Origin: Oscillospiraceae bacterium
GTDB lineage: Bacteria; Bacillota; Clostridia; Oscillospirales; Oscillospiraceae
Reading direction: 5' to 3'
NCBI GenBank assembly: GCA_902761635.1
Contig: CACWLG010000045.1
Coordinates: forward strand, 1-49,612
DNA length: 49,612 nt
Position numbers and translations under genes: made by a program. Shown piece by piece: positions 29,931 to 42,852 of this stretch; positions within the stretch are counted from its first letter, which is position 1; each line of letters begins with the position of its first letter. Under the pieces are notes generated by a model that was not told where the DNA came from, ran no database searches, and saw nothing but the letters and a program-made list of their open reading frames with translations.

Positions 29931-30692
29931 TTACGCGGCTTCGGCCGCGGTCTTTTTTGATTTGCCGACCAGGCGGCTCAGCACAATGCTCAGCTCATAC
30001 AGCGCCAGCATCGGCACGGCGACCATGATCTGCGAGACAATGTCCGGCGGGGTGATGATGGCGGCCAGCACAAAGATGATGACGACCATAACCTTGCGGC
30101 CTCTGGCCAGCCATTCCGCCTTTACGATGCCGAGCCCCGTCAGCAGTACGGTGACTACCGGCAGCTCAAACACCAGGCCGAAGATCACAAACACCGTCAG
30201 CAAAAAGCTGATATAGGACTGGATGCTGATGGAGGCGGACACGTCCACCTCCCCGGTAAACTGGATCAAAAAGCGCAGCATGAAGGGCAGGCTGATAAAA
30301 TAGGCAAAGGCCACACCCAGCAGGAAGCACAGCGCCCCCGCAATAAGCGCCCCGGAAATATATGTGCGCTCCTTGCCGCTCAGCCCAGGGCTGCAGAAGG
30401 CGTAGACCTGGTAGGCCAGCACAGGAAAGCACACCACAACCGCGCCCACCAGCGCCACGTTCATATACACGAGGAACAGCTCCTGCGGCGCGATGTAGAC
30501 ATAGACGTAGTCAAAGCGCTTGCCCATGTCGGTGAGCAGGGTCACGATGCGCGGCGCAAAGCTCAGGCACAGGGCGAAGACCGCCAGCAGCAGCAGCACG
30601 CACACGAGGATGCGGTTTCTGAGCTCCCGCAGGTGGCCGGACAGACTCATGCTCCCATCGGGATTGGGCGCCTCTTTAGCTTTGTTTTTCAT
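29931..30692 (-). CDS. tatC: Twin-arginine translocase subunit TatC
   Basis: This 253-residue six-helix membrane protein recognises twin-arginine signal peptides. Visible landmarks are SLSGHLRELRNRI at the N-terminus (signal-peptide binding), FCSPGLSGKERTYI in the first periplasmic cap and cytoplasmic loop, FLLTVFVIFGLVFELPVVTVLL, and the AIITPPDIVSQIMVAVPMLALYE end. I use the ATG at 30692, since upstream residues in this frame are a low-complexity Arg-rich run from the tatA tail. It overlaps tatA by 17 nt. A Tat substrate, the flavoprotein, is encoded 5 kb away. Confidence 0.95.
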   Translation of the reverse strand: MKNKAKEAPNPDGSMSLSGHLRELRNRILVCVLLLLAVFALCLSFAPRIVTLLTDMGKRFDYVYVYIAPQELFLVYMNVALVGAVVVCFPVLAYQVYAFCSPGLSGKERTYISGALIAGALCFLLGVAFAYFISLPFMLRFLIQFTGEVDVSASISIQSYISFLLTVFVIFGLVFELPVVTVLLTGLGIVKAEWLARGRKVMVVIIFVLAAIITPPDIVSQIMVAVPMLALYELSIVLSRLVGKSKKTAAEAA

Positions 30693-30909
30693 CGCCGGCC
30701 TCGGCCTTCTTTCCGGTCTCGGCCGTCTGGCTCTTTCCGGCCTTCGGCGCCTGCGGCGCATCGCCGGCTTCAGCTGCCTCATCCATGCCGTCCTTGAAGC
30801 TCTTTACGCTCTTGCCGAACATTTTGGTGAGCTTGGGGATCTGGGTGGGCCCAAAAATAATGATGACAACAATCAGGATGATGATAAGCTCCTGCGTCCC
30901 GATTCTCAT
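30676..30909 (-). CDS. tatA: Tat translocase pore subunit TatA
   Basis: This 77-residue protein has a short membrane helix at 8-20 (LIIILIVVIIIFGPTQIPKL), with the FGPTQIPKL hinge typical of TatA, then the amphipathic helix TKMFGKSVKSFKDGMDE. The tail is charged and Ala/Lys rich. TAAAGGAGGAG precedes the start. The start overlaps the tatB-like stop by 4 nt. It forms the translocation pore with TatC. Confidence 0.94.
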   Translation of the reverse strand: MRIGTQELIIILIVVIIIFGPTQIPKLTKMFGKSVKSFKDGMDEAAEAGDAPQAPKAGKSQTAETGKKAEAGDEKQS

Positions 30910-31337
30910 GCGGATTCTCCTCCTTTATCTTCTGTTGCCTCCGCGTTCACTGCGGGGGCGGTCATATCTGCGTTTTGCGCTTCGGGAGCGGCGGCTTCCT
31001 CTGCCGGGGCCTCCGGCGTCTTCTCCGTTTCGGCCTGCTTCTCCAGCGGCCTGGCTTTGCCGATGTTCCTGAGGTCCTTTTCCACCGCGTTCAGATCACC
31101 CTTGAGACCCTTGGAGATATCGTCCAGCGGCTCCATCGCCTCGCGCAGAGGCTTCTGCGCCTCCTCCAACGGGTCGATGACGCTCTCCCGGATCTCCTTG
31201 GTTACATCCGAAGAGGCCTTGCGAAATACCCGCAGGGCGGAACCGAATTTGCGCGCATACTGCGGCAGCTTGTCCGGGCCGATCACCAGCAGGGCCACAA
31301 TGAATATGACCACCAGCTCCATGGCGCCGATCTTCAT
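30906..31337 (-). CDS. tatB: TatB-like Sec-independent translocase component
   Basis: This 143-residue protein has the Tat N-terminal helix MELVVIFIVALLVIGPDKLP, the amphipathic segment ARKFGSALRVFRKASSDVTKEI, and a long acidic, Ala/Glu-rich tail. The length, and DKLP instead of TQIP, make it closer to TatB than TatA. Firmicutes often have only TatA, so a separate TatB-like subunit beside tatA and tatC is informative but not rare. AAAGGAGGG precedes the ATG. It is first of three overlapping genes transcribed leftward. Confidence 0.85.
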   Translation of the reverse strand: MKIGAMELVVIFIVALLVIGPDKLPQYARKFGSALRVFRKASSDVTKEIRESVIDPLEEAQKPLREAMEPLDDISKGLKGDLNAVEKDLRNIGKARPLEKQAETEKTPEAPAEEAAAPEAQNADMTAPAVNAEATEDKGGESA

Positions 31338-31938: not shown

Positions 31939-31950
31939 AAAGCAGAACAA

Positions 31951-31981
31951 AAAACACGCCGCTTCGTGCGGCGTGTTTTTT
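31951..31981. terminator. acpP terminator, shared with ccsA
   Basis: The 12-bp stem AAAACACGCCGC / GCGGCGTGTTTT has a TTCGT loop and a T run on the plus side (A run on the left), so it can act for both convergent genes. Confidence 0.93.
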
Positions 31982-32009
31982 GCGCTCTGGCAAACGCATA
32001 AAACAGGCG

Positions 32010-32804
32010 TCAGCCGTAGGTGTGCAGCCCATGCATGAAGGTGTTGACCCCGGCGAAGGTGAAGAAGACCACCGGCACCGCGATCACGAGATACCAGGCC
32101 AGGAAAGTCCGCCCGTCCTTGCCGCGGTTTCTCAGGTGCAGGTGCAGGTACACCGCGTAGATGATCCAGGTGATCAGTGCCCAGACCTCCTTGGGGTCCC
32201 AGGTCCAGAAAGCGGACCAGGCCTGCTCGGCCCAGATGGCGCCGGAGAGGAGCACCACCGTCAGAAACAGAAAACCGAAGGCCACCATGCGGTAGCTGAG
32301 ATAGTCCATCTGCCGCAGGGCCTTGCTGTCCGCGTTCCCCTTTTTGACCGTCAGCAGATAGCGCAGGGCAATGCTGCCGGCGATAACGAAGGCGGCGTAG
32401 CTTAAAACCGCTGAGCCGATGTGCACGCCGAACCAGGCGCTGCGCAGCGCCGGCATCAGATCCTTGATCTCCATGGGCTGCAGGGCGGCATAGGTCATCA
32501 CCAGCAGCGTCGCCGGCATGGCCACGGCCGAGAGCCAGTCGGCCTTGAGCTTTCCGCGCATCACGATCAGCATCAGCGCCACGCCCCAGGCAAAGGCGTT
32601 GGCAAATTCAAACTGGTTGGAAAGCGGCAGGCGCTTTGCGACGATGCCGCGCCAGACGATGAAGGCCGAATGCAGGGCGAAGGCCGCGACAAAAACGTAC
32701 CACGCCGCCCTCAAAAGCTTCTCTTTTTTGAAGGCTGTCCCCGTAAACTCCAGAATGACCGCCAGCGCATATACCGCAAAGGCCGCGAAAAACAATGCTC
32801 TCAT
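32010..32804 (-). CDS. ccsA: System II cytochrome c biogenesis protein CcsA/ResC
   Basis: This 264-residue polytopic membrane protein, with about eight hydrophobic segments, exports heme and presents it for attachment to CxxCH/K motifs. The Trp-rich heme-binding WWD domain is WAEQAWSAFWTWDPKEVW (191-208). Conserved His residues are in GVHIGSAVLSYA (about 128) and FMHGLH at the C-terminus. It works with ResB (Ccs1), encoded directly upstream. GAGGAGATCAGG precedes the start. The neighbouring five-heme NrfA is the obvious client. Confidence 0.95.
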   Translation of the reverse strand: MRALFFAAFAVYALAVILEFTGTAFKKEKLLRAAWYVFVAAFALHSAFIVWRGIVAKRLPLSNQFEFANAFAWGVALMLIVMRGKLKADWLSAVAMPATLLVMTYAALQPMEIKDLMPALRSAWFGVHIGSAVLSYAAFVIAGSIALRYLLTVKKGNADSKALRQMDYLSYRMVAFGFLFLTVVLLSGAIWAEQAWSAFWTWDPKEVWALITWIIYAVYLHLHLRNRGKDGRTFLAWYLVIAVPVVFFTFAGVNTFMHGLHTYG

Positions 32805-32853: not shown

Positions 32854-34101
32854 TCAAACTTCACATGAGACTTCGTACTCCCTCAGCTCCTCGCCAAGCT
32901 CGATGCGCATACGCTCGGGCTTGGGGCCGAGGACCGCGTAGCCCACTTCATCGGTCTTGACCAGCACCGGCTCATGGAAGAAGGTAATGAAGAGGCCCGC
33001 GATCATCAGCGTGAAGGAGGCCACCAGCAGCCCGTTCAGTAGACGGGAGACATGCTTGACGCGGATGCCGGGGTACTCCACCGGGTCGTTGAAGCGAAAG
33101 CGCAGGCCCATGACCGTGAGTTCATCCCCCGGCTCCGCCAGCACGGGGGTGAAGACACCGTCGGAGAAGGTCTCCACCTGATAGATGGGATGGGGATAAC
33201 GCCCCTCGGTGATGGTAATGAGCGTGACCTCCCCGTCGGGGCTGCGGATAAAATCGGGGTAGAGGGTGTCATAGAGGATGCCGCTCGCCCCGTCGGCGGA
33301 GAGATAGGATTGACCGGTCAGGAGAAAACCGTCGCTGCCGCCGGTCTCCAGGTCGGTGACCGTGACGGAGCCCGCCGTGCCGAAGGTCTGCTGAAAGAGC
33401 TTCCAGGGGCCGAAGGAGAAGGGGTGGTTTACCTTGAGCTCGGCCACCTCGCTGCGCTGCCCGCTGGGAAGCGTGATCTGCACATGGCTCGTGTAGTCGA
33501 GGCGGCCCGTGTCGTCGGCAATGCGAAAGTCATGCACGCGGATCTCGGTCCCGTCCTCCATGAAAACGGACTGCCCAGGCATGCACTCCCGGTCCACGAC
33601 CTTCGGGGTGTAGAGGGCCAGTGCGCCGAAGATCACCGTCAGCAGGATGGACAGGTGCGTGAGAAAGCTGCCGTAGCGCCCGAAGCTGTTTTTGTGCCAT
33701 ACGGCTGCGCCTTCGTGCTCCTCGCGCCTGCAGTGAAGCTGCGTGAGATAATCCCGCAGCTTCTCCGCGCCTGCGGGGGTAAGCCGCACCGTATCGGGCG
33801 TCTTGGCGGCGCGCGCCGTCTCGCCCTTTGCCGCCCAGACAACGCTTCGGATGCGGACCAGGGAGCAGAGACTCAGGTTCAGGCACAGCAGCACCAGCAG
33901 CAGGATAAAGTACCGGCTCTCAAAAACGCGGTTTAAGCCCAGCAGCAGGATAATGCCGTGGAAGGAGCGGTAGGTCTGCGCGTACCAGGCGATCTCCCGG
34001 CCCTGGGGGATCACCGTCCCCGCCACGGAGCACAGGCCGATCAGCCCGAGCAGCAGCAGGCCGAAGCGCATGGAGCGCAGGAAATTCAATACTTTTTTCA
34101 T
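32854..34101 (-). CDS. resB: ResB/Ccs1-family cytochrome c biogenesis protein
   Basis: This 415-residue membrane protein pairs with CcsA for heme ligation. Three N-terminal hydrophobic segments (about 9-28, 45-80 and 148-165) and a C-terminal one (about 368-388) frame a large extracytoplasmic domain with HPFSFGPWKLFQQTFG, a conserved ResB feature. NFLRSMRFGLLLLGLIGLCS at the N-terminus matches the family opening. It is 49 nt upstream of ccsA, in the same orientation. A strong hairpin sits between it and nrfA. AAGGGG precedes the ATG. Confidence 0.93.
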   Translation of the reverse strand: MKKVLNFLRSMRFGLLLLGLIGLCSVAGTVIPQGREIAWYAQTYRSFHGIILLLGLNRVFESRYFILLLVLLCLNLSLCSLVRIRSVVWAAKGETARAAKTPDTVRLTPAGAEKLRDYLTQLHCRREEHEGAAVWHKNSFGRYGSFLTHLSILLTVIFGALALYTPKVVDRECMPGQSVFMEDGTEIRVHDFRIADDTGRLDYTSHVQITLPSGQRSEVAELKVNHPFSFGPWKLFQQTFGTAGSVTVTDLETGGSDGFLLTGQSYLSADGASGILYDTLYPDFIRSPDGEVTLITITEGRYPHPIYQVETFSDGVFTPVLAEPGDELTVMGLRFRFNDPVEYPGIRVKHVSRLLNGLLVASFTLMIAGLFITFFHEPVLVKTDEVGYAVLGPKPERMRIELGEELREYEVSCEV

Positions 34102-34166: not shown

Positions 34167-35732
34167 TTAGCGGGTCAGGGCGAACATCATCTGCGTAGCC
34201 TCGGCGCAGAGCTCGTCCGCCTTGTCGAGGCACTGGTTGGTCAGGCTCGGGTTATGCACGCCCTCGGCGTTCTCAACGAACACGAAGTCCCAGTAGAACT
34301 GCGCGTCACGCGCGAGGGAACGGATGGGATCAAGCTGCTCGTCGGTGTACTTCCCGCTCGCCACGGCCTGGGCCAGAAGCTCGGTCAGGTACTCGAGGCG
34401 GTAGCCCACGGTATAGGTGCGCGTCTCGATCTTCTGCTGCGCGGCCCGGACCTCGCTCACGAGGTCAAAGTGGCAGGCAGAGCAGGTGTTCTGAATCAGC
34501 TCGGGGTTATCCAGGGGGCTGATGAGGTTGTGGCTGTGGTAGGCGGTGCCGTCGGCGTTCACCTCGTTCGGCATATGGCAGTCGGCGCAGGTGAAGTCGT
34601 TGGCGTGGGGGCTGCCGGCGCCCAGGAAGGTCTCAAACTCGGGGTGCTGCACCTTGATCTGCTTGACGCCGGTGCGGGGGTTGGTCCAGTCGGCAAAGGG
34701 CGCGCCGTCGTTGAAGTAGGCCAGCATCGTCTCGGGGGCCATGGACGCAAGGCTGTTGTGGGCGATGGTGGTCGCCTTGGTGTCGGGGGCAAAGTAATAC
34801 TCATTGTGGCACTGACCGCAGGCGAGGTTCGCCGGTGCGATCTTGTCAAAGTCGTCGCCCACCGCGTCGATCCAGTAGGTGTGGGTGATGGTGATGTCGC
34901 CGGGGGTGTTGGCATGGCAGGAGTAGCAGCTGATGCCCTCGGTGATCTGGGCCTGCACCTCGGTCCAGTCCTTCTGGTAGGCGCTGACGCCCTCCTCATT
35001 GACCATATTGGTGAAATCGGGGGTCTTGCAGGTCCAGCAGTTGGCCAGGGGGTGCGGACGGCCGGTGGCCTCGATATCCTGCACGTCGTAGTAGTGGCCG
35101 CGGGCCGCCTTGTAGTCCTTGGCGAAGCCGTAGCCCTCATACAGGCCGCGCAGCATCGGGTAGAGCTCGAGATAATCCTCGGCCTCACTGCTCTCCTTGG
35201 TCATGCACCAGCTGTTGTACTGGTCGGGGTACTGGTCCTTCCAGTCCACCGCGTGCAGAACGGTAACGCCGGACATGGTCTGCACCTTGTGGGCCGCAGG
35301 CCTGGCCTCGACCTTGGGGGCCTCCATGCCGAAGGCGGCGCTGTCGATGCCGCCGCTCTGCAGGGCCAGGGCGACTGCCTGCCGGATAGCGTCGGAGGTG
35401 ACGGTGGCGCCGGAGACGGCGTCGAGCGCGAGGGTCTGCTTTTCCACGATCTGACCGGGGATCTGGTCGACGGCCATGGTGCCGATGCCCTCGGTCTCGC
35501 TGTGCTCGGTCACGGTGACTTCATAGATCTTCTTATCGTCGGCCTTGACCTGAACGGTCACGTCGCCGACCTTGCCGGGGGCGCTGGCGGTCAGGGTCTG
35601 GGCATTCGCGCTTGCCGCGCGGGCGATAACGCCGGAGCTGACATTGATCACCAGCAGCAGTGCCAGGAACAGTCCGCAGCCCGCGCCGATCATGTTCAGG
35701 CGCTTTTCGCGTTTCGCTTTGTCTTCTCTCAT
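34167..35732 (-). CDS. nrfA: Pentaheme cytochrome c nitrite reductase NrfA with fused N-terminal FMN-binding domain
   Basis: This 521-residue exported enzyme should reduce nitrite to ammonium. Residues 14-38 form a signal anchor. About 46-130 is an FMN_bind-like domain ending DAVSGATVTSDAI, the flavinylation motif with Thr110 as acceptor. The NrfA part then follows: CWTCK (232-236, active-site heme with Lys ligand), CYSCH (269), CGQCH (305), CADCH (382) and CSACH (417). Catalytic residues are present as Arg211 (RGH), Tyr312 (NEYYF) and His363 (QHPEFE); K360/Q362 fit the Ca site. The NrfA body is complete. Fusion to FMN_bind is unusual, and no nrfH is adjacent. GGAGA precedes the start. Confidence 0.93.
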   Translation of the reverse strand: MREDKAKREKRLNMIGAGCGLFLALLLVINVSSGVIARAASANAQTLTASAPGKVGDVTVQVKADDKKIYEVTVTEHSETEGIGTMAVDQIPGQIVEKQTLALDAVSGATVTSDAIRQAVALALQSGGIDSAAFGMEAPKVEARPAAHKVQTMSGVTVLHAVDWKDQYPDQYNSWCMTKESSEAEDYLELYPMLRGLYEGYGFAKDYKAARGHYYDVQDIEATGRPHPLANCWTCKTPDFTNMVNEEGVSAYQKDWTEVQAQITEGISCYSCHANTPGDITITHTYWIDAVGDDFDKIAPANLACGQCHNEYYFAPDTKATTIAHNSLASMAPETMLAYFNDGAPFADWTNPRTGVKQIKVQHPEFETFLGAGSPHANDFTCADCHMPNEVNADGTAYHSHNLISPLDNPELIQNTCSACHFDLVSEVRAAQQKIETRTYTVGYRLEYLTELLAQAVASGKYTDEQLDPIRSLARDAQFYWDFVFVENAEGVHNPSLTNQCLDKADELCAEATQMMFALTR

Positions 35733-35794: not shown

Positions 35795-35823
35795 ATAATA
35801 TTATATTATGTTGACTTTTGCAA
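35795..35823 (-). promoter_or_regulatory. nrfA promoter
   Basis: Minus strand TTGCAA (35818-35823), a 17-nt spacer and TATTAT (35795-35800), in an AT-rich gap. A perfect 12-bp palindrome TATAATATTATA (35794-35805) overlaps the -10 box. I see no clear FNR-type TTGAT-N4-ATCAA box. Confidence 0.65.
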
Positions 35824-35837
35824 GAACAAATTTTCAT

Positions 35838-35870
35838 CAAAAAAGCACCCGGTGCGTGTGCACCGGGTGC
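35838..35870 (-). terminator. Terminator of the FMN/FAD flavoprotein gene
   Basis: Minus-strand stem GCACCCGGTGC / GCACCGGGTGC with a 4-nt loop is followed by TTTTTTGATG. It separates the flavoprotein transcript from nrfA, so the two are not in one simple operon. Confidence 0.93.
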
Positions 35871-35893: not shown

Positions 35894-37810
35894 TTACTTC
35901 TTTGCCACGATCTTGGCGGCGCGGCGGCCGAAGGTCATGGTGCGGCCGCAGGCGAGGCCGGTGAAGAGGTTGGGGTAATTGTTGGCGAAGAAGCCGCCGG
36001 TGCAGTCGCCGGTGGCGTAGAGGCCCTCGATGACGGAGCCGTCCTCACGGATGACCTGCATGTCGGTGTTGATGCGGCAGCCGTCCAGGGTGGTCAGGTG
36101 CCAGGCGCCGGTGCGGATGCCGTAGAAGGGGGCGGTATCCACCGGGGTCATGCGGTGGGCGGACTTGCCGTAGTCCTCGTCCTCGCCCTTGGCGCACAGG
36201 ACGTTGTAGCGGGCGACGGTCTTCTCCAGCTCGTCGGCGGGGATGTTCAGCTTCTCGGCAAGCTCGGCAATGGTGTCGGCCTTCTGCAGGTAGCCCAGAG
36301 CCAGGTGGGAGTTCTCGCCCTCGGTCATTTCCTTCCAGCAGGCGTCAAAGCCGCGGTTGGAGATGGCGCCGTTCGGGAACGGGAAGAGGCGGCAGCAGCC
36401 GACCTCGTCAAACTGCTCGGCATACTGCTTGCAGTTCGAGTCAAAGATGTCTACGTAGGTGTGGTCGGGCTGCATGTACATGGAGTGCAGCATGAACTCG
36501 TAGGGGCCGGACTCGTTGCAGAAGCGCTGACCCTTGAGGTTGACCTTGAGGAAGGGCTGTTCGCCGAACCAGTACCACTTGCCGTTGGTCTTGTAACCGG
36601 CGGTCTCGGTGGGCAGGCACGAGCAGCGGTTGAACATCATGGAGGCGTGGCAGGGGTCCATCTCGCCGCCCGCCCAGAGCATGGCCTTGATGCCCGCGCC
36701 GTCGGACTTGGAGCCCATGGGGACGTTGATCTTCATCTTCATGGTCTGGGGCTGGAGGGCCAGCATCATGTCGCCGTTGGAGGCGTAGCCGCCGGTGGCC
36801 ATGATGACGCCCTTGGAGGCGTTGATGCGGATGTAATGCTGATCCTTCATGTCCTGGGCGATGATGCCGGTGACCTTGCCGTCCGCGTCCTGGTCGAGCT
36901 TGACGAGGCAGGTGTTGCAGCGGATCTCACCGCCGCGGCTGGTGACGAACTCGGTCATGTCGGAGTTGAGGTCCACGTCGTCGGGCTTGCCCTCCGCAGG
37001 ATGGGGGCTGTGGCCGGTGGCGTAAGCCTTGTCGCGCTCGGGGTGGTTGAGGTCGCCTACGCCGCCCTCGAGACTCATGTACCAGTGACCGGTGCCCTCC
37101 AGGATGTCGGTGAGCCAGTCCACGGTCTCGCCGGAGTTGTCGATCCAGACCTTGACGAGGTCACTGTCCACGTAGCCGCTGGCGTAGCGGACAATATCCT
37201 GCAGGGCCTCGATCTTGTTGATCTTGAACTCGGGGAACTGCTCAAAGCTCTCGAGCTGGAGCTTCGAGTTGATGGCGCCGATGTCCTCCTTGATCTTGGT
37301 GGGGGTCTCGGCCTTCTCGACGACGAGGACCTTTGCGCCCTCCTCGGCGGCGGCGTCGGCAACCTCGGGAGCCTCACCCAGCCAGTCGGAGACGGCGGGA
37401 GCGGCCTCCTGCACGACGACAGCCTTGCCGCTGGCCTGGGAGATACAGTCGGCGACGGCCTTCTTGACCGCGTCGGAGGTGACGGTCGCGCCGGAGACGG
37501 CGTCGATATCCGGGCCCTGGGCGTCGAGAATGGCCTTCTCGAGCAGGGGGCCGGCTTTGCCGCCGATGTCGGGGGTCTCACCGGTGGAGTCGATGACGAC
37601 GGAGAGGATCTCGGTCTCGCTGAACTCCATGGTCACCTTGACGTCGCTTGCGATGCCCTTGGCGGTGGCGGTGTAGACGCCGGGGGTGTACTTGGTTTCC
37701 TCTGCCGCGGCCACGACGGGGACGGAGCCCAGCACACCGGCGGCGGCGACGCCGAAGGCGCCGGCGGCGACGCCCTTGAGGAAGTCTCTGCGGGTAAGTT
37801 CTTTAGCCAT
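35894..37810 (-). CDS. Tat-exported FMN-binding, FAD_binding_2-type flavoprotein reductase, apparently lacking its FAD P-loop
   Basis: This 638-residue protein resembles extracytosolic fumarate/urocanate-type reductases. A Tat signal with RRDFLKG (7-13) and Ala-rich h-region comes first. An FMN_bind domain (about 40-125) ends DAVSGATVTSDAV (Thr109, covalent FMN). The FAD domain then lacks the first strand and GxGxxG loop: sequence passes from WLGEAPEVAD straight to AAAEEGAKVLVVEK (strand 2). The rest looks intact, including MATGGYASNGD and the C-terminal GLYATGDCTGGFFANNYPNL. No frameshift is seen. I use the ATG at 37810, six nt after AAAGGAGA. The electron acceptor is unknown. Confidence 0.85.
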   Translation of the reverse strand: MAKELTRRDFLKGVAAGAFGVAAAGVLGSVPVVAAAEETKYTPGVYTATAKGIASDVKVTMEFSETEILSVVIDSTGETPDIGGKAGPLLEKAILDAQGPDIDAVSGATVTSDAVKKAVADCISQASGKAVVVQEAAPAVSDWLGEAPEVADAAAEEGAKVLVVEKAETPTKIKEDIGAINSKLQLESFEQFPEFKINKIEALQDIVRYASGYVDSDLVKVWIDNSGETVDWLTDILEGTGHWYMSLEGGVGDLNHPERDKAYATGHSPHPAEGKPDDVDLNSDMTEFVTSRGGEIRCNTCLVKLDQDADGKVTGIIAQDMKDQHYIRINASKGVIMATGGYASNGDMMLALQPQTMKMKINVPMGSKSDGAGIKAMLWAGGEMDPCHASMMFNRCSCLPTETAGYKTNGKWYWFGEQPFLKVNLKGQRFCNESGPYEFMLHSMYMQPDHTYVDIFDSNCKQYAEQFDEVGCCRLFPFPNGAISNRGFDACWKEMTEGENSHLALGYLQKADTIAELAEKLNIPADELEKTVARYNVLCAKGEDEDYGKSAHRMTPVDTAPFYGIRTGAWHLTTLDGCRINTDMQVIREDGSVIEGLYATGDCTGGFFANNYPNLFTGLACGRTMTFGRRAAKIVAKK

Positions 37811-37860
37811 ACACATTCTCCTTTAGTTTTATAATAGGTTTGGGTTTCCAGCATGCCTTT

Positions 37861-38094: not shown

Positions 38095-41000
38095 ATGAAA
38101 AAGAATGTAGTAAGAGCGCTGGCACTGGTGCTTGTAGCGCTGATGTGTCTGTCCCTGATCCCGCTGGCGGCGCATGCGGAGGCGCATGTGCACGAGATGG
38201 CGACGGATCATCAGGACCCCACCTGCGTGGAAGTCGGATTCGATCAGACCTACTGCCCGATCTGCAATACGACGTTCAGCATGAATTACATCCCCGCCAC
38301 CGGCGTGCACAGCTTTATCCCGGTAGAGGATGAGGAATACATGATCGAGGAGGGCGACTGCACCCACCCCTATCAGTACTGGAAATCCTGCTCCGTCTGC
38401 CAGCAGAGCGCGGAGGAGGCCTACGGTCTTGCTGTCGACGAGCTGGTGGAGGAGCTTACTGCCCGCAAACAGAGCGGGGAACAGGCGGATTGGGAGAGCG
38501 TCACGAAGAACCGCATCCTTCTGCTGGATGAGCGCTACAAATTCAGCGCCGGCGGTGAGGGGCACCATATCCTCCATGTCGACCGCCAGGAGGCCACCTG
38601 CACCAGCGACGGCTGGAAGGAGTACACCTGGTGCGACGTGTGCGGCGAGCGCTTCAACTTTGAGGCCATCCCTGCCAAGGGCCACCGCTGGAGCGAGTTC
38701 AAGGTGACGAAGGAAGCCACCTGCACCGAGGACGGCAGCCGTGAGCGCGTGTGTGAAGTCTGCGACAAGAAAGATGTCCAGGTCATTCCGGCCCTGGGCC
38801 ACACCTGGACTGCCTTCAAGGAGACGAAGGCGGCCACCTGCACCGAGGACGGCAGCCAGGAGCGCACCTGCACGGTCTGCGGCGCGAAGGAGGTTCAGGT
38901 CATTCCGGCAGCCCACAAGTTCGGTGAGTTTGTCGTGATCGAGGAGCCCACCTGCGATGCCTCCGGCACCAAAGAGCATACCTGCACGGTCTGCAGCCAC
39001 AAGGAGACCGAGAGCATTCCGGCGGCCCACAAGTTCGGCGAGTTTGTCGTGACCCAGGAGCCCACCTGCTACTCCACCGGCGCAAAGCAGCGCGTCTGCT
39101 CTGTCTGCGGCGAGACGGAGGTACAGTGGATCGACATGGCCCACAAGTATGAAAACGGCGTGTGCGTTTTCTGCGGCGAGGCCCAGCCCGAGGGTGAGAC
39201 CCAGAGCGTGAACGAGACCCAGACCGCGGCCGGAGAGACCGCGGCATACGAGAGCGCGGAGACCGAGGAACAGCCTGACGAGATGGCGCCGGTATCCGAA
39301 AACATCATCTACATCAACTTTGACGGCAACGGCGCGACCTCCGGCAGCATGGACGCCCAGGCCTTTGACCCGGGCACTTCCCAGAACCTGAACCTCAACG
39401 CCTTTGTGAGAACCGGATATAAGTTCATCGGCTGGGACTACATCGCCGACGGCAGCGGCATGGGCGATCAGCCCTTCCTCGACGGCGAGGAAGTCACCCT
39501 CAACTCCCCCGTGACCCTTTACGCCCAGTGGGCCGAGGACCCCGATGCGGACAGAGAATTTGCTGCTGTTAGTATCAGTGAAGCAGAGGCTTATAACGAC
39601 GACACTGCCAAAGTTGGTGAGTTAAGTGCAAGTGAGTTATTGCAGTTTAATGAAGGGGACGCACCCTTTGAGCAGCCGGAGTTGACGCTTGGCGGTATCA
39701 AGGTGACCGAGGCTCTGGTTGGCGCGACACTTACTGCAACTGTAGAACCCAGCGATAAGTCTTACCAGTATCAATGGATTCGCGACACGGACGGCGTATA
39801 CAGCTATATTTCCGGAGCAACAAAAAAGACATATACGCTGACTGATAGTGACTGCACTAATTCTGTTTATTGCTCGGTAAACGAGGTTGGTCATCTGCAG
39901 CCGGCAAGACTCAGCACAGGTGTTCATGTGCGCAAGGAAGCACCCCTTCCTGTTACGATCAGAGATGCAAACGGCAGCGAAAGCACCGTAAAGATTGAGG
40001 TAAAAGATAATATACATCCCGATTATTCGGCAGAGGTGTTCAGCTATCCGGAGTCGTATAGCAATTCTTTTAAACTCAATGCGCTGACCGAAGACGAAAT
40101 CAAAATCACCGTAAATCCGGACATTTATCACGGTACCTATGTTCGGTATGTAGTCAAGAACAGTTCTACGGTTTTGATCGGCACGGCGAAAGAGGAAAAA
40201 ACCTATACCATAGGATCGCTGAGCACAAGCGACGCTTCGAGTTACTTCACCATCTTTTTTGATATTCCGGTTTGTGAGGCAAGCGAGACTGCAACTATGG
40301 AGAATGACCAGCTCCTCGCAAATAATCCTGCGATTAAAGAAAAGTTTATAAAAGCTTATGTCGAAAAAGAAGGACAGGAAAACGCCTATCCTTATGCCTA
40401 CTACTATGTAACACCGCATTGGAAAACGGCCCCGACGGTCCCTCTCTCTCATAGCGAGATTTCTGTCGTTGGTGGATTCACCTTTACGATGAATCTGCCT
40501 GCAGGCGTTACTGATGAAAATTACAATGAGTTCGATGTCCGGGCCTATCATTATCTTGAAGAGTCCGACAGTTGGGAACAGATCAAATATAGAAAAGTTC
40601 CGAACGAGGCCAAGATTGAAATAGAGAATTTCTCTAACTTCTCCCCCTTTGCTGTTGTTGCAAGACCTACGGATAAAGCCAGCTTTGTCGGCGGCGAACA
40701 TGGTACGGTTACAAATCCTGATATAACCGCTGATGATAAAGGCGATTTGGTTCTGCCGCAGCCTGCTTTTACTGCTGCAAACGGGTGGACATTCGCTGGG
40801 TGGCAGGTAAACGGTGAGACAAAGCAGCCTGGTAATACGATCCATATTACTGAGGACATCGTTGTAACCGCTGTTTGGTCTAAAGGCTATACGATCACAT
40901 TTAACAAGAATGAAGGAACAGATCCTATCCATACATATGGGGCAAATGTTATAGGCGAGATGGCGCAGGAATTTGTTCTTTTCAATGAAGATGGCTCGCT

Positions 41001-42852
41001 GGTCAATCCCGATCAGAAACTTACAAAAGCTGCGTTCTCGCTGAAAAACCATGAGTTCCAAGGCTGGAGTGTTATTCCGGGTACCACTGCCACAGTGGAC
41101 CACATCGACCAAAAGAAGATTTCGGACATGGAAGTCCGAACAGAGGATCTAACTCTCTATGCCGTGTGGAAGAGAACAAAGGTTAGCCTTTCATTTAATG
41201 GTAGCGGCGCTACTGGTTCGATGGCAGAGCAGTCTACAAGCCCCGGAGCCTCCATTACCCTTAATGCCAATGCGTTTACAGCACCCACTGGTCAGATGTT
41301 TGCGGGCTGGGATACAGATCCAAGCGCTGGCACCGTAGTATACAAAAACGGCGAAACCATCACAATGCCAGATGTCGATACTACACTCTACGCTGTGTGG
41401 AGAGATCAAATAACGATCCACTTTTTCCCGAATAGCGACAGCGGCACCGGCACTGGTACAATGGCGGATCAAATTGTCCCGAGCGGTATACCGACCAAAC
41501 TGAGATCGAATGCCTTCACAGCACCTGACGGAAAAGCTTTTGCTTCATGGAACGATAGGCAGGATGGTTTAGGAAAAGAATATAAAAACAGAGCTGAAGA
41601 TAGTTGGACGGGCGACACCTATCTCTATGCACAGTGGGGTGATAAAGTCACCATATATTACAGTCCCAATGGAGGAAACCCTGAAACAAGAAAAATACAA
41701 ACCGCTGCGCAGGGTGTAGAAACTACAATTGCAACGAATGCACAAACCAACTTCACAAGGGATGGGTATACATTCATGGGCTGGGATAGAATCCCCAGCA
41801 AAAAGGAAAACCTCGATTATCCGGCCGGACAGGAAAACAAGGATACGTTTTACGAAGATACAGTTGAACTCTATGCAATCTGGGAGCAGACTGGCTTTGT
41901 TGGCAACGTGAATATCTCCGGCAGTCTGTCCAGCCTAGACGAGTTTGCTTTTGTGGGTGAGATACTGACAGCCAACGTGACAGGTGAAAGTAAGTTCACC
42001 AAATTTGAGTATGAATGGATTCGTGATAGTGATACGACTAATATTATAGGAACTGAAAAGACCTATGTCCCGACGGCAGAAGATTTTGGACATGTCCTCT
42101 CTTGTAGAGTCACAGCGGTAGATGCAAGTCAAGACAAGTCCAAGACAAGCAATAGCAAATATGTCAGCATTGACTATACAGAGAGACGTATCGTTAATAA
42201 CGGTCAGACGGAAAAGGACTATATAGAAGGTTTGCTTCCCACTATGACCTATACAATTAACGGTATAGATCAGGGACGTGTTACGCTTGTCAATGGCCTA
42301 ATGGAAGTTACAAAACAGGGCGTCTACCAGTTCTTCCGTGAAGACGGCACCTTTGCAGGCAGCGTTACTGTAATAAACTGGTGGACCATCGGCTTTAACA
42401 CCAGTTCCGGCACGGGCGACAGCGGCGGCAGCGGTACCGCCACCATGAAGCGTGGCAGCACTACCCTCTCCGGCAGCACCACCATCAGGGACAGCGCCGG
42501 CGACATCATCCTCCAGCCCTACAGTGTGAGCGGCTACAGCAATGCCTGGATCGTGCGCCAGGACGCTGGGATCACGGACATCACCCTGACGGTGAAGCCC
42601 TCCTCCGGCAGCTACGGTCATGTCAGCCGCAACGGCGGCAGCTACAGCTCCTCCAATGCGGAACGGACGATCAGCATCGGCGCGATTTCCGGGCCGGAGA
42701 TGTATGAAATCATCTTCAACAAGTCCAGCACCAGCCCGAAGACCGGGGACATGTCCCACCTGGGCCTCTGGTCCGGCCTGTGCCTGACCTCCTTCGTCGG
42801 CGCGGCGACCATCCTCGGCTCCGCCCGCAAGCGCAAAAAGGAGCAGGACTGA
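38095..42852 (+). CDS. Large mosaic cell-wall-anchored surface protein with Cys-rich and Listeria-Bacteroides repeats
   Basis: This 1585-residue exported protein begins with a Sec signal peptide ending AAHAEA (about 1-27). Residues about 165-360 hold five repeats of some 38-40 residues with the ATCTEDGS.ER.C.VC pattern. InlB-type (Flg_new, GY.F.GW...LYA.W) modules are at about 405-480 and 1030-1265. Ig-like segments (YQYQWIRD, FEYEWIRD) lie at about 540-600 and 1275-1355. The C-terminus is SPKTGD, a hydrophobic helix, then RKRKKEQD, a sortase signal variant. About 39.56-42.34 kb is much more AT-rich than the flanks. The start is the ATG at 38095 after GAGGT. Confidence 0.87.
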   Translation: MKKNVVRALALVLVALMCLSLIPLAAHAEAHVHEMATDHQDPTCVEVGFDQTYCPICNTTFSMNYIPATGVHSFIPVEDEEYMIEEGDCTHPYQYWKSCSVCQQSAEEAYGLAVDELVEELTARKQSGEQADWESVTKNRILLLDERYKFSAGGEGHHILHVDRQEATCTSDGWKEYTWCDVCGERFNFEAIPAKGHRWSEFKVTKEATCTEDGSRERVCEVCDKKDVQVIPALGHTWTAFKETKAATCTEDGSQERTCTVCGAKEVQVIPAAHKFGEFVVIEEPTCDASGTKEHTCTVCSHKETESIPAAHKFGEFVVTQEPTCYSTGAKQRVCSVCGETEVQWIDMAHKYENGVCVFCGEAQPEGETQSVNETQTAAGETAAYESAETEEQPDEMAPVSENIIYINFDGNGATSGSMDAQAFDPGTSQNLNLNAFVRTGYKFIGWDYIADGSGMGDQPFLDGEEVTLNSPVTLYAQWAEDPDADREFAAVSISEAEAYNDDTAKVGELSASELLQFNEGDAPFEQPELTLGGIKVTEALVGATLTATVEPSDKSYQYQWIRDTDGVYSYISGATKKTYTLTDSDCTNSVYCSVNEVGHLQPARLSTGVHVRKEAPLPVTIRDANGSESTVKIEVKDNIHPDYSAEVFSYPESYSNSFKLNALTEDEIKITVNPDIYHGTYVRYVVKNSSTVLIGTAKEEKTYTIGSLSTSDASSYFTIFFDIPVCEASETATMENDQLLANNPAIKEKFIKAYVEKEGQENAYPYAYYYVTPHWKTAPTVPLSHSEISVVGGFTFTMNLPAGVTDENYNEFDVRAYHYLEESDSWEQIKYRKVPNEAKIEIENFSNFSPFAVVARPTDKASFVGGEHGTVTNPDITADDKGDLVLPQPAFTAANGWTFAGWQVNGETKQPGNTIHITEDIVVTAVWSKGYTITFNKNEGTDPIHTYGANVIGEMAQEFVLFNEDGSLVNPDQKLTKAAFSLKNHEFQGWSVIPGTTATVDHIDQKKISDMEVRTEDLTLYAVWKRTKVSLSFNGSGATGSMAEQSTSPGASITLNANAFTAPTGQMFAGWDTDPSAGTVVYKNGETITMPDVDTTLYAVWRDQITIHFFPNSDSGTGTGTMADQIVPSGIPTKLRSNAFTAPDGKAFASWNDRQDGLGKEYKNRAEDSWTGDTYLYAQWGDKVTIYYSPNGGNPETRKIQTAAQGVETTIATNAQTNFTRDGYTFMGWDRIPSKKENLDYPAGQENKDTFYEDTVELYAIWEQTGFVGNVNISGSLSSLDEFAFVGEILTANVTGESKFTKFEYEWIRDSDTTNIIGTEKTYVPTAEDFGHVLSCRVTAVDASQDKSKTSNSKYVSIDYTERRIVNNGQTEKDYIEGLLPTMTYTINGIDQGRVTLVNGLMEVTKQGVYQFFREDGTFAGSVTVINWWTIGFNTSSGTGDSGGSGTATMKRGSTTLSGSTTIRDSAGDIILQPYSVSGYSNAWIVRQDAGITDITLTVKPSSGSYGHVSRNGGSYSSSNAERTISIGAISGPEMYEIIFNKSSTSPKTGDMSHLGLWSGLCLTSFVGAATILGSARKRKKEQD

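Follow-up and report, generated by a model that had tools for sequence, protein, structure and literature searches.

In the known NrfA systems, electrons are passed from quinol to the enzyme through NrfH or NrfBCD. In the NrfHA complex of Desulfovibrio vulgaris (2j7a, 2vr0), NrfH, a tetraheme quinol dehydrogenase, acts as both anchor and inlet. MmcA of Methanosarcina acetivorans is linked to RNF and lacks an FMN domain, and serves as an electron conduit and not as a nitrite reductase. The stretch of DNA analyzed here (hereafter the window; 49,612 nucleotides, contig CACWLG010000045.1 of an Oscillospiraceae genome) encodes an NrfA that differs from those of E. coli, Shewanella and W. succinogenes by an added N-terminal anchor and FMN domain, and by a genome without NrfH, NrfD or an above-cut-off UbiA match. 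Compared to D. vulgaris NrfHA, the chain itself carries a flavin cassette where a separate NrfH would be expected.

Fusions of this general kind have been described in other settings. FMN_bind domains are also carried by terminal reductases for fumarate and urocanate (Listeria FrdA and Shewanella UrdA; excerpts of PMC8238504), although the reductase head of these enzymes is FAD-dependent while that of NrfA is heme-dependent. The closest report appears to be that of Meheust et al. 2021, where, in the excerpts available to us, a subset of the multi-flavinylated RnfG proteins of Christensenellales is described as also carrying a multi-heme cytochrome domain (PMC8238504). As in that RnfG, FMN_bind and multi-heme domains share one chain in the window protein, with RNF as the donor there and the putative donor here; unlike it, the window protein is a free-standing, anchored reductase with a single FMN domain and is not an RnfG. 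The terms “NrfA” and “PF02335” were not found in the main-text passages of that article available to us. A likeness to MmcA, as portrayed in excerpts of PMC11024163, lies in electron transport by a multiheme cytochrome c. What appears to be new is the combination of a known enzyme core with a known flavin domain, which would change the electron donor. We consider it likely, judging from sequence, that the window protein is a membrane-anchored NrfA on the outer face, fed through a covalent FMN on its own chain that replaces NrfH, probably by RNF and without quinones.

A nitrite reductase core joined to an FMN_bind domain

The fusion gene occupies positions 34167..35732 on the minus strand and, based on its reading frame and family profile matches, encodes 521 residues. 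The predicted model begins with an N-terminal anchor helix (residues 2-35; 35628..35729, minus strand), assigned from its secondary structure and including a stretch of low confidence (pLDDT <50 at residues 31-38). This is followed by an FMN_bind domain (residues 44-130; 35343..35603, minus strand), which scored above the PF04205 cut-off, carries a DxxSGAT motif and was modeled with an FMN_bind fold, and by an NrfA core (residues 155-521; 34170..35270, minus strand), which was modeled with the NrfA fold and matched PF02335 (NrfA / cytochrome c552) with 259 bits against a cut-off of 24.1. The flavinylation motif D104-AVSGA-T110 (35403..35423, minus strand) was identified from sequence and from a motif-free profile test (see below); its threonine is, from ApbE substrates, presumably the site of flavin attachment. 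Sequence and alignment placed a CWTCK heme motif at residues 232-236 (35025..35039) and CxxCH heme motifs at residues 269-273 (34914..34928), 305-309 (34806..34820), 382-386 (34575..34589) and 417-421 (34470..34484), all on the minus strand. Alignments with 3ubr and 1gu6 matched R211, Y312, H363, K360 and Q362, which we take to be the catalytic Arg, Tyr and His, and the Lys and Gln that precede this His. The first-pass annotation, made from the DNA alone, had read an FMN_bind domain with a DAVSGAT motif and a complete NrfA (CxxCK, four CxxCH and the catalytic Arg, Tyr and His) on one chain, and each of these elements was confirmed. The protein scored below the cut-offs of the NCBIfam equivalog NF008339 (229 bits, cut-off 595) and of RnfG (TIGR01947; 26.9 bits, cut-off 102). 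An overlapping open reading frame of 549 aa on the plus strand was set aside on the basis of homology and the better codon score of the minus strand.

After removal of duplicates, the assembled set held 126 distinct NrfA genes, of which 60 were fused and 66 unfused, the latter including contig-end fragments and genes from outside the family. The recurrence of the fusion in 60 distinct genes ruled out an assembly chimaera. Within the 36 rows of alignment A1 (the most distant sharing 46% identity with the window protein), D104, G108, A109 and T110 were invariant; the rows had been picked by this motif, so its invariance there arises by construction and proves nothing. A fairer test was made with a profile of residues 46-100, which leaves the motif out, against the 126 distinct NrfA chains. 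The profile matched 59 chains, and D-x-x-x-G-A-T followed directly behind the match in 58 of them (48 SGAT, 6 TGAT, 2 AGAT and 2 GGAT). For the 59th chain, the inspected stretch stops before the expected motif site, and the chain was counted as motif-bearing in a separate count.

On the side of the reductase, R211, H213, K236, Y312 and H363 were invariant in A1, as were the heme-motif Cys and His residues. CxxCK, four CxxCH, Arg and Tyr are present in all 60 distinct fused genes, and K-x-Q-H is kept in 59 of them, the exception (L177) reading M-V-N-H. The same exchange of Lys and Gln for Met and Asn was seen in the NrfA homologues L095, L100, L096 and L099. NO and hydroxylamine are further substrates of NrfA enzymes, and this, together with the exchanged residues, would suit an enzyme that is wired to flavin without serving nitrite respiration, i.e., one that removes toxic nitrite, NO or hydroxylamine or reduces another acceptor. 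We regard such a role as unlikely for the window enzyme, in which every catalytic residue checked is kept and the core is that of NrfA by both sequence and fold.

Distribution and history of the fusion

In a sample of 400 genomes of the same family, 34 gave matches at E 1e-30 or better: 14 with the full fusion (the window's included), 17 with NrfA only (two of them with partial genes) and three with the anchored FMN cassette only. Across the order, 394 genomes were sampled, and PF02335 scored over its cut-off in two of them. Beyond the family, no NrfA match but the window's started before profile position 127 in 391 class and 398 phylum genomes, in scans that scored at most three candidates per genome and that a strongly diverged FMN domain would escape. 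As far as sampled, the fusion appears confined to one family of gut Clostridia. Named genomes were scanned separately (300 relatives, best 80 loci kept), and among these 80 the closest record was RUG13571 at 98% identity, “RUG” being, we assume, a label for rumen genomes. The fused genes that came with titles belong to metagenome-assembled genomes of Ruminococcaceae, Oscillospiraceae or Clostridia(les), and the gut of goat, sheep, roe deer or buffalo is named in many of the relatives' titles. At L030 and L035, a frameshift or an assembly error has put the first FMN part into another frame than that of FMN-NrfA.

The first-pass annotation had made the novelty of the enzyme depend on the fusion not being common and characterized. 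Within its family the fusion is fairly common, being present in 14 of the 400 genomes, while no characterization was found. Descriptions of an FMN_bind-NrfA protein were likewise not found among the open-access papers searched, some of which may contain a passing mention.

To follow the history of the fusion, a quick IQ-TREE phylogeny of the NrfA core was used, comprising 84 rows, of which 58 are fused and 26 unfused; L075 and L090 were left out because contig ends truncate them. The labels fused and unfused change at least six times on this tree, and five of these changes are forced by starred branches. This rules out a single clade of fused enzymes and indicates a recurrent wiring instead. 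The undescribed class of ammonifying nitrite reductase proposed in the first-pass annotation is therefore not a separate one by descent, and its catalytic core is that of an ordinary NrfA. Some unfused genes without adjacent rnf (L047, L053 and L065) are near sisters of the window gene, which shows that NrfA of this group can do without the FMN domain.

Seven unfused NrfA (L020, L073, L074, L076, L078, L079 and L080) have, as judged by eye, a fusion-like anchor and no FMN domain, and look as if this domain had been excised.

The fused domain could be unflavinylated and a mere anchor or spacer, with NrfA receiving electrons directly from diffusible carriers, a route that its unfused sisters have to use. 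Repeated gain or loss of the domain and the similar anchors of these seven relatives speak for such a role. Against this, the flavinylation motif is kept in 58 of the 59 chains that were found without using it, modeling gave the domain an FMN_bind fold and ApbE is encoded in the genome, which together make an anchor or spacer function very improbable.

Partner genes and the probable route of electrons

The window's genome (3.59 Mb in 176 contigs, 85.8% complete) gave no match to the NrfH/NapC family (PF03264) or to NrfD (PF03916), the partners with which an NrfHA or NrfABCD respiratory complex would be formed. For UbiA prenyltransferase, no match above the cut-off was found in this genome (one match of 21.2 bits, cut-off 34.2), and all 14 control genomes had one. 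The genome does encode one ApbE (G000:C16:38520-39338) and an rnfC-D-G-E-A-B operon whose RnfG carries FMN_bind; nrfA and rnf lie on separate contigs (C45 and C11). In all, 12 FMN_bind matches were obtained. Two FMN_bind proteins lie side by side (L101:9158-15158, G000:C44), an anchored one of 668 aa with six FMN_bind stretches and one of 1257 aa that combines two FMN_bind stretches with several of FAD_binding_2. Among five copies compared in this genome, the one closest to the anchor-FMN cassette of the window protein lies at the start of the six-FMN protein (54% identity over 125 aa), followed by the 1257-aa protein (44%) and by RnfG and the FMN-FAD protein that neighbours the fusion gene (34% each). 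In all three relatives compared, the cassette of FMN-NrfA is 45-50% identical to that of a 608-610-aa FMN-FAD reductase of the same genome. The anchor and FMN domain together look like a movable cassette.

Partner families were then counted in 69 hand-chosen NrfA-bearing genomes, consisting of 29 of the 31 NrfA-bearing genomes of the 400-genome family sample (G504 and G757, with partial genes, were left out), 10 other genomes of the family (G007, G020, G021 and G024 were left out beside these), 4 of the class and 26 from elsewhere in the phylum. The phylum genomes were high-scoring ones; G1524 was overlooked and lower-scoring genomes were left out. PF03264 was present in 0 of the 39 family genomes (21 fused, 18 unfused), 0 of 4 class genomes and 20 of 26 phylum genomes, and PF03116 (RnfD, also NqrB) in 34 of 39, 3 of 4 and 14 of 26, respectively. 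Genomes without PF03264 had PF03116 in 43 of 49 cases, as opposed to 8 of 20 for those with PF03264 (Fisher p 1.1e-4, uncorrected for kinship). PF03116 was not found in five of the 39 family genomes (G005, G751, G696, G729 and G633; 72-92% complete). Stand-alone nrfA in genomes lacking NrfH also occurs outside the family: resB or resC lay beside nrfA in 10 of 12 fetched neighbourhoods, and none of the 12 had an FMN gene beside nrfA. Since unfused and stand-alone nrfA exist without NrfH, the FMN fusion is one of several solutions to life without it.

On sequence grounds, three connections of this NrfA to flavin appear among the relatives, namely through the anchored FMN fusion, through an RnfG-NrfA fusion and through an nrfA placed in the rnf operon. 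Chains that start as RnfG and end as NrfA were found at L064, L082 and L092 (TIGR01947, 133.8, 132.2 and 215.2 bits; cut-off 102), and a similar chain at L069 stayed below this cut-off with 88.2 bits. These chains carry one (L069), two (L064 and L082) or five (L092) FMN_bind stretches. L092, L064 and L082 fit the description of the multi-heme RnfG in the excerpts of PMC8238504, with NrfA as the heme part, and the two arrangements may be the same. In the third wiring, the gene order is rnfC-rnfDG-rnfE-rnfA-rnfB-nrfA-resB-resC, with nrfA unfused and RnfD and RnfG on one chain; at L091 this RnfDG chain scored 235.6 bits against TIGR01946 (cut-off 207), matched PF04205 at E 1.5e-16 and fell just below the TIGR01947 cut-off of 102 with 97.7 bits. 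Such operons were seen at L091, L160, L161, L162, L163, L166, L170 and L172, and in part at L093, where the contig ends. The element shared beside NrfA across these wirings is the FMN_bind domain of the RNF and flavin network.

Directly 3' of the RnfG-FMN-NrfA gene, a second, unfused NrfA was noted at L082, L084, L085, L086 and L087 (L085 is titled Oscillibacter and L087 Dysosmobacter); its start looked lipoprotein-like by eye.

Adjacency to rnf was assessed for genes with at least 2.5 kb of upstream sequence and within a reach of 7 kb, limits chosen once a first operon of this kind had come to light. By this measure, nrfA followed rnf for 9 of the 35 distinct unfused genes and for none of the 51 fused ones (Fisher p 1.5e-4, uncorrected for kinship); four of the 26 unfused genes without adjacent rnf lay directly behind an RnfG-FMN-NrfA gene. 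Because rnf adjoins none of the fused genes, the link of the fusion to RNF derives from relatives. This would agree with a different reading, in which the FMN domain is the inlet and the FMN carriers are reduced not by RNF but by some other flavin- or cytochrome-based membrane system, by a soluble flavoprotein or by flavins outside the cell, as would the many further FMN_bind proteins in these genomes and the five family genomes in which PF03116 was not matched. Such a donor seems improbable to us, however, in view of the nrfA genes in rnf operons and the RnfG-NrfA fusions among relatives, and of the rnf genes present in the window's own genome.

Overall, the recurrent fusion, the motif kept in 58 of 59 chains, the lack of NrfH and NrfD matches, the presence of ApbE and the fusions and operons with RnfG in relatives make a flavin input, which the first-pass annotation had put forward as an alternative to NrfH or NrfBCD, what appears to be the best explanation. 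In the RNF-fed route that we favour, ApbE would attach FMN covalently to Thr110, and this FMN would form the electron entry in place of the quinol-oxidizing NrfH. Ferredoxin reduced by fermentation would deliver electrons to the ion-pumping RNF complex, from which they would pass to the flavin on RnfG at the outer side and then to FMN-Thr110, either directly or via the six-FMN protein, whose gene lies on another contig, before moving through the NrfA hemes to reduce nitrite to ammonium. The anatomy of the gene, its conservation, the families present in or missing from the genome, and the fusions and operons of relatives are observations, from which we infer flavinylation, docking, the order of electron flow, the donor, the substrate and activity, and energy conservation. 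A wider proposal, that in these gut Clostridia RNF feeds NrfA via covalent FMN through three interchangeable solutions and thereby allows an ammonification that conserves energy at RNF and is free of both quinone and NrfH, is offered tentatively, and we lean slightly against it. With a flavin-fed and probably RNF-coupled NrfA, nitrite could serve quinone-less fermentative Clostridia as an electron sink that conserves energy. This would matter for feeding nitrate to ruminants to curb methane, where the hazard is a build-up of nitrite, and FMN and five hemes on a single chain would provide a model for flavin-to-heme electron transfer. It would also bear on which gut organisms turn nitrite into ammonium, a step for which nrfA was assigned mainly to Prevotella and Bacteroides in the excerpts of a rumen study (PMC12918512).

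Transcription unit and neighbouring genes

Downstream of the fusion gene and on the same strand lie resB (32854..34101; PF05140, E 2.1e-33) and resC/ccsB (32010..32804; PF01578, E 5.5e-41; TIGR03144, 210.1 bits, cut-off 187.6), which by profile matches are the system II cytochrome c maturation pair. A promoter-like site with 9 of 12 consensus matches precedes the fusion gene (35795..35823, minus strand) and a terminator-like hairpin stands behind resC (31947..31983, minus strand), both from a consensus scan only. The FMN-nrfA, resB and resC genes are probably one transcription unit. Where at least 2 kb of downstream sequence was available, a ResB and/or ResC gene was found 3' of nrfA in 53 of 54 distinct fused genes and in all 40 distinct unfused ones. 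Other NrfA systems need a separate lyase for the CxxCK heme (NrfEFG, NrfI), and the presence of ResB-ResC beside a CxxCK-type NrfA fits this need. All hemes, the atypical one at CxxCK among them, would be attached by this pair.

Upstream and outside the unit lies a reductase with FMN_bind and FAD_binding_2 family matches and a twin-arginine-like start (35894..37816, minus strand). A conserved operon with this gene was ruled out, as a terminator-like hairpin behind it (35845..35870, minus strand; consensus scan and sequence) and the promoter-like site separate it from the fusion gene; among the printed neighbourhoods, such a neighbour was present only at L021, L026, L036 and L089. Close to the reductases, a tatC-like and two tatA-like genes were recognized by eye (29931-31337, minus strand). 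On the plus strand (38143-42852), a large protein ends in what by eye resembles a SPKTGD-type sortase signal and has repeated C-x-x-C modules in its N-terminal part.
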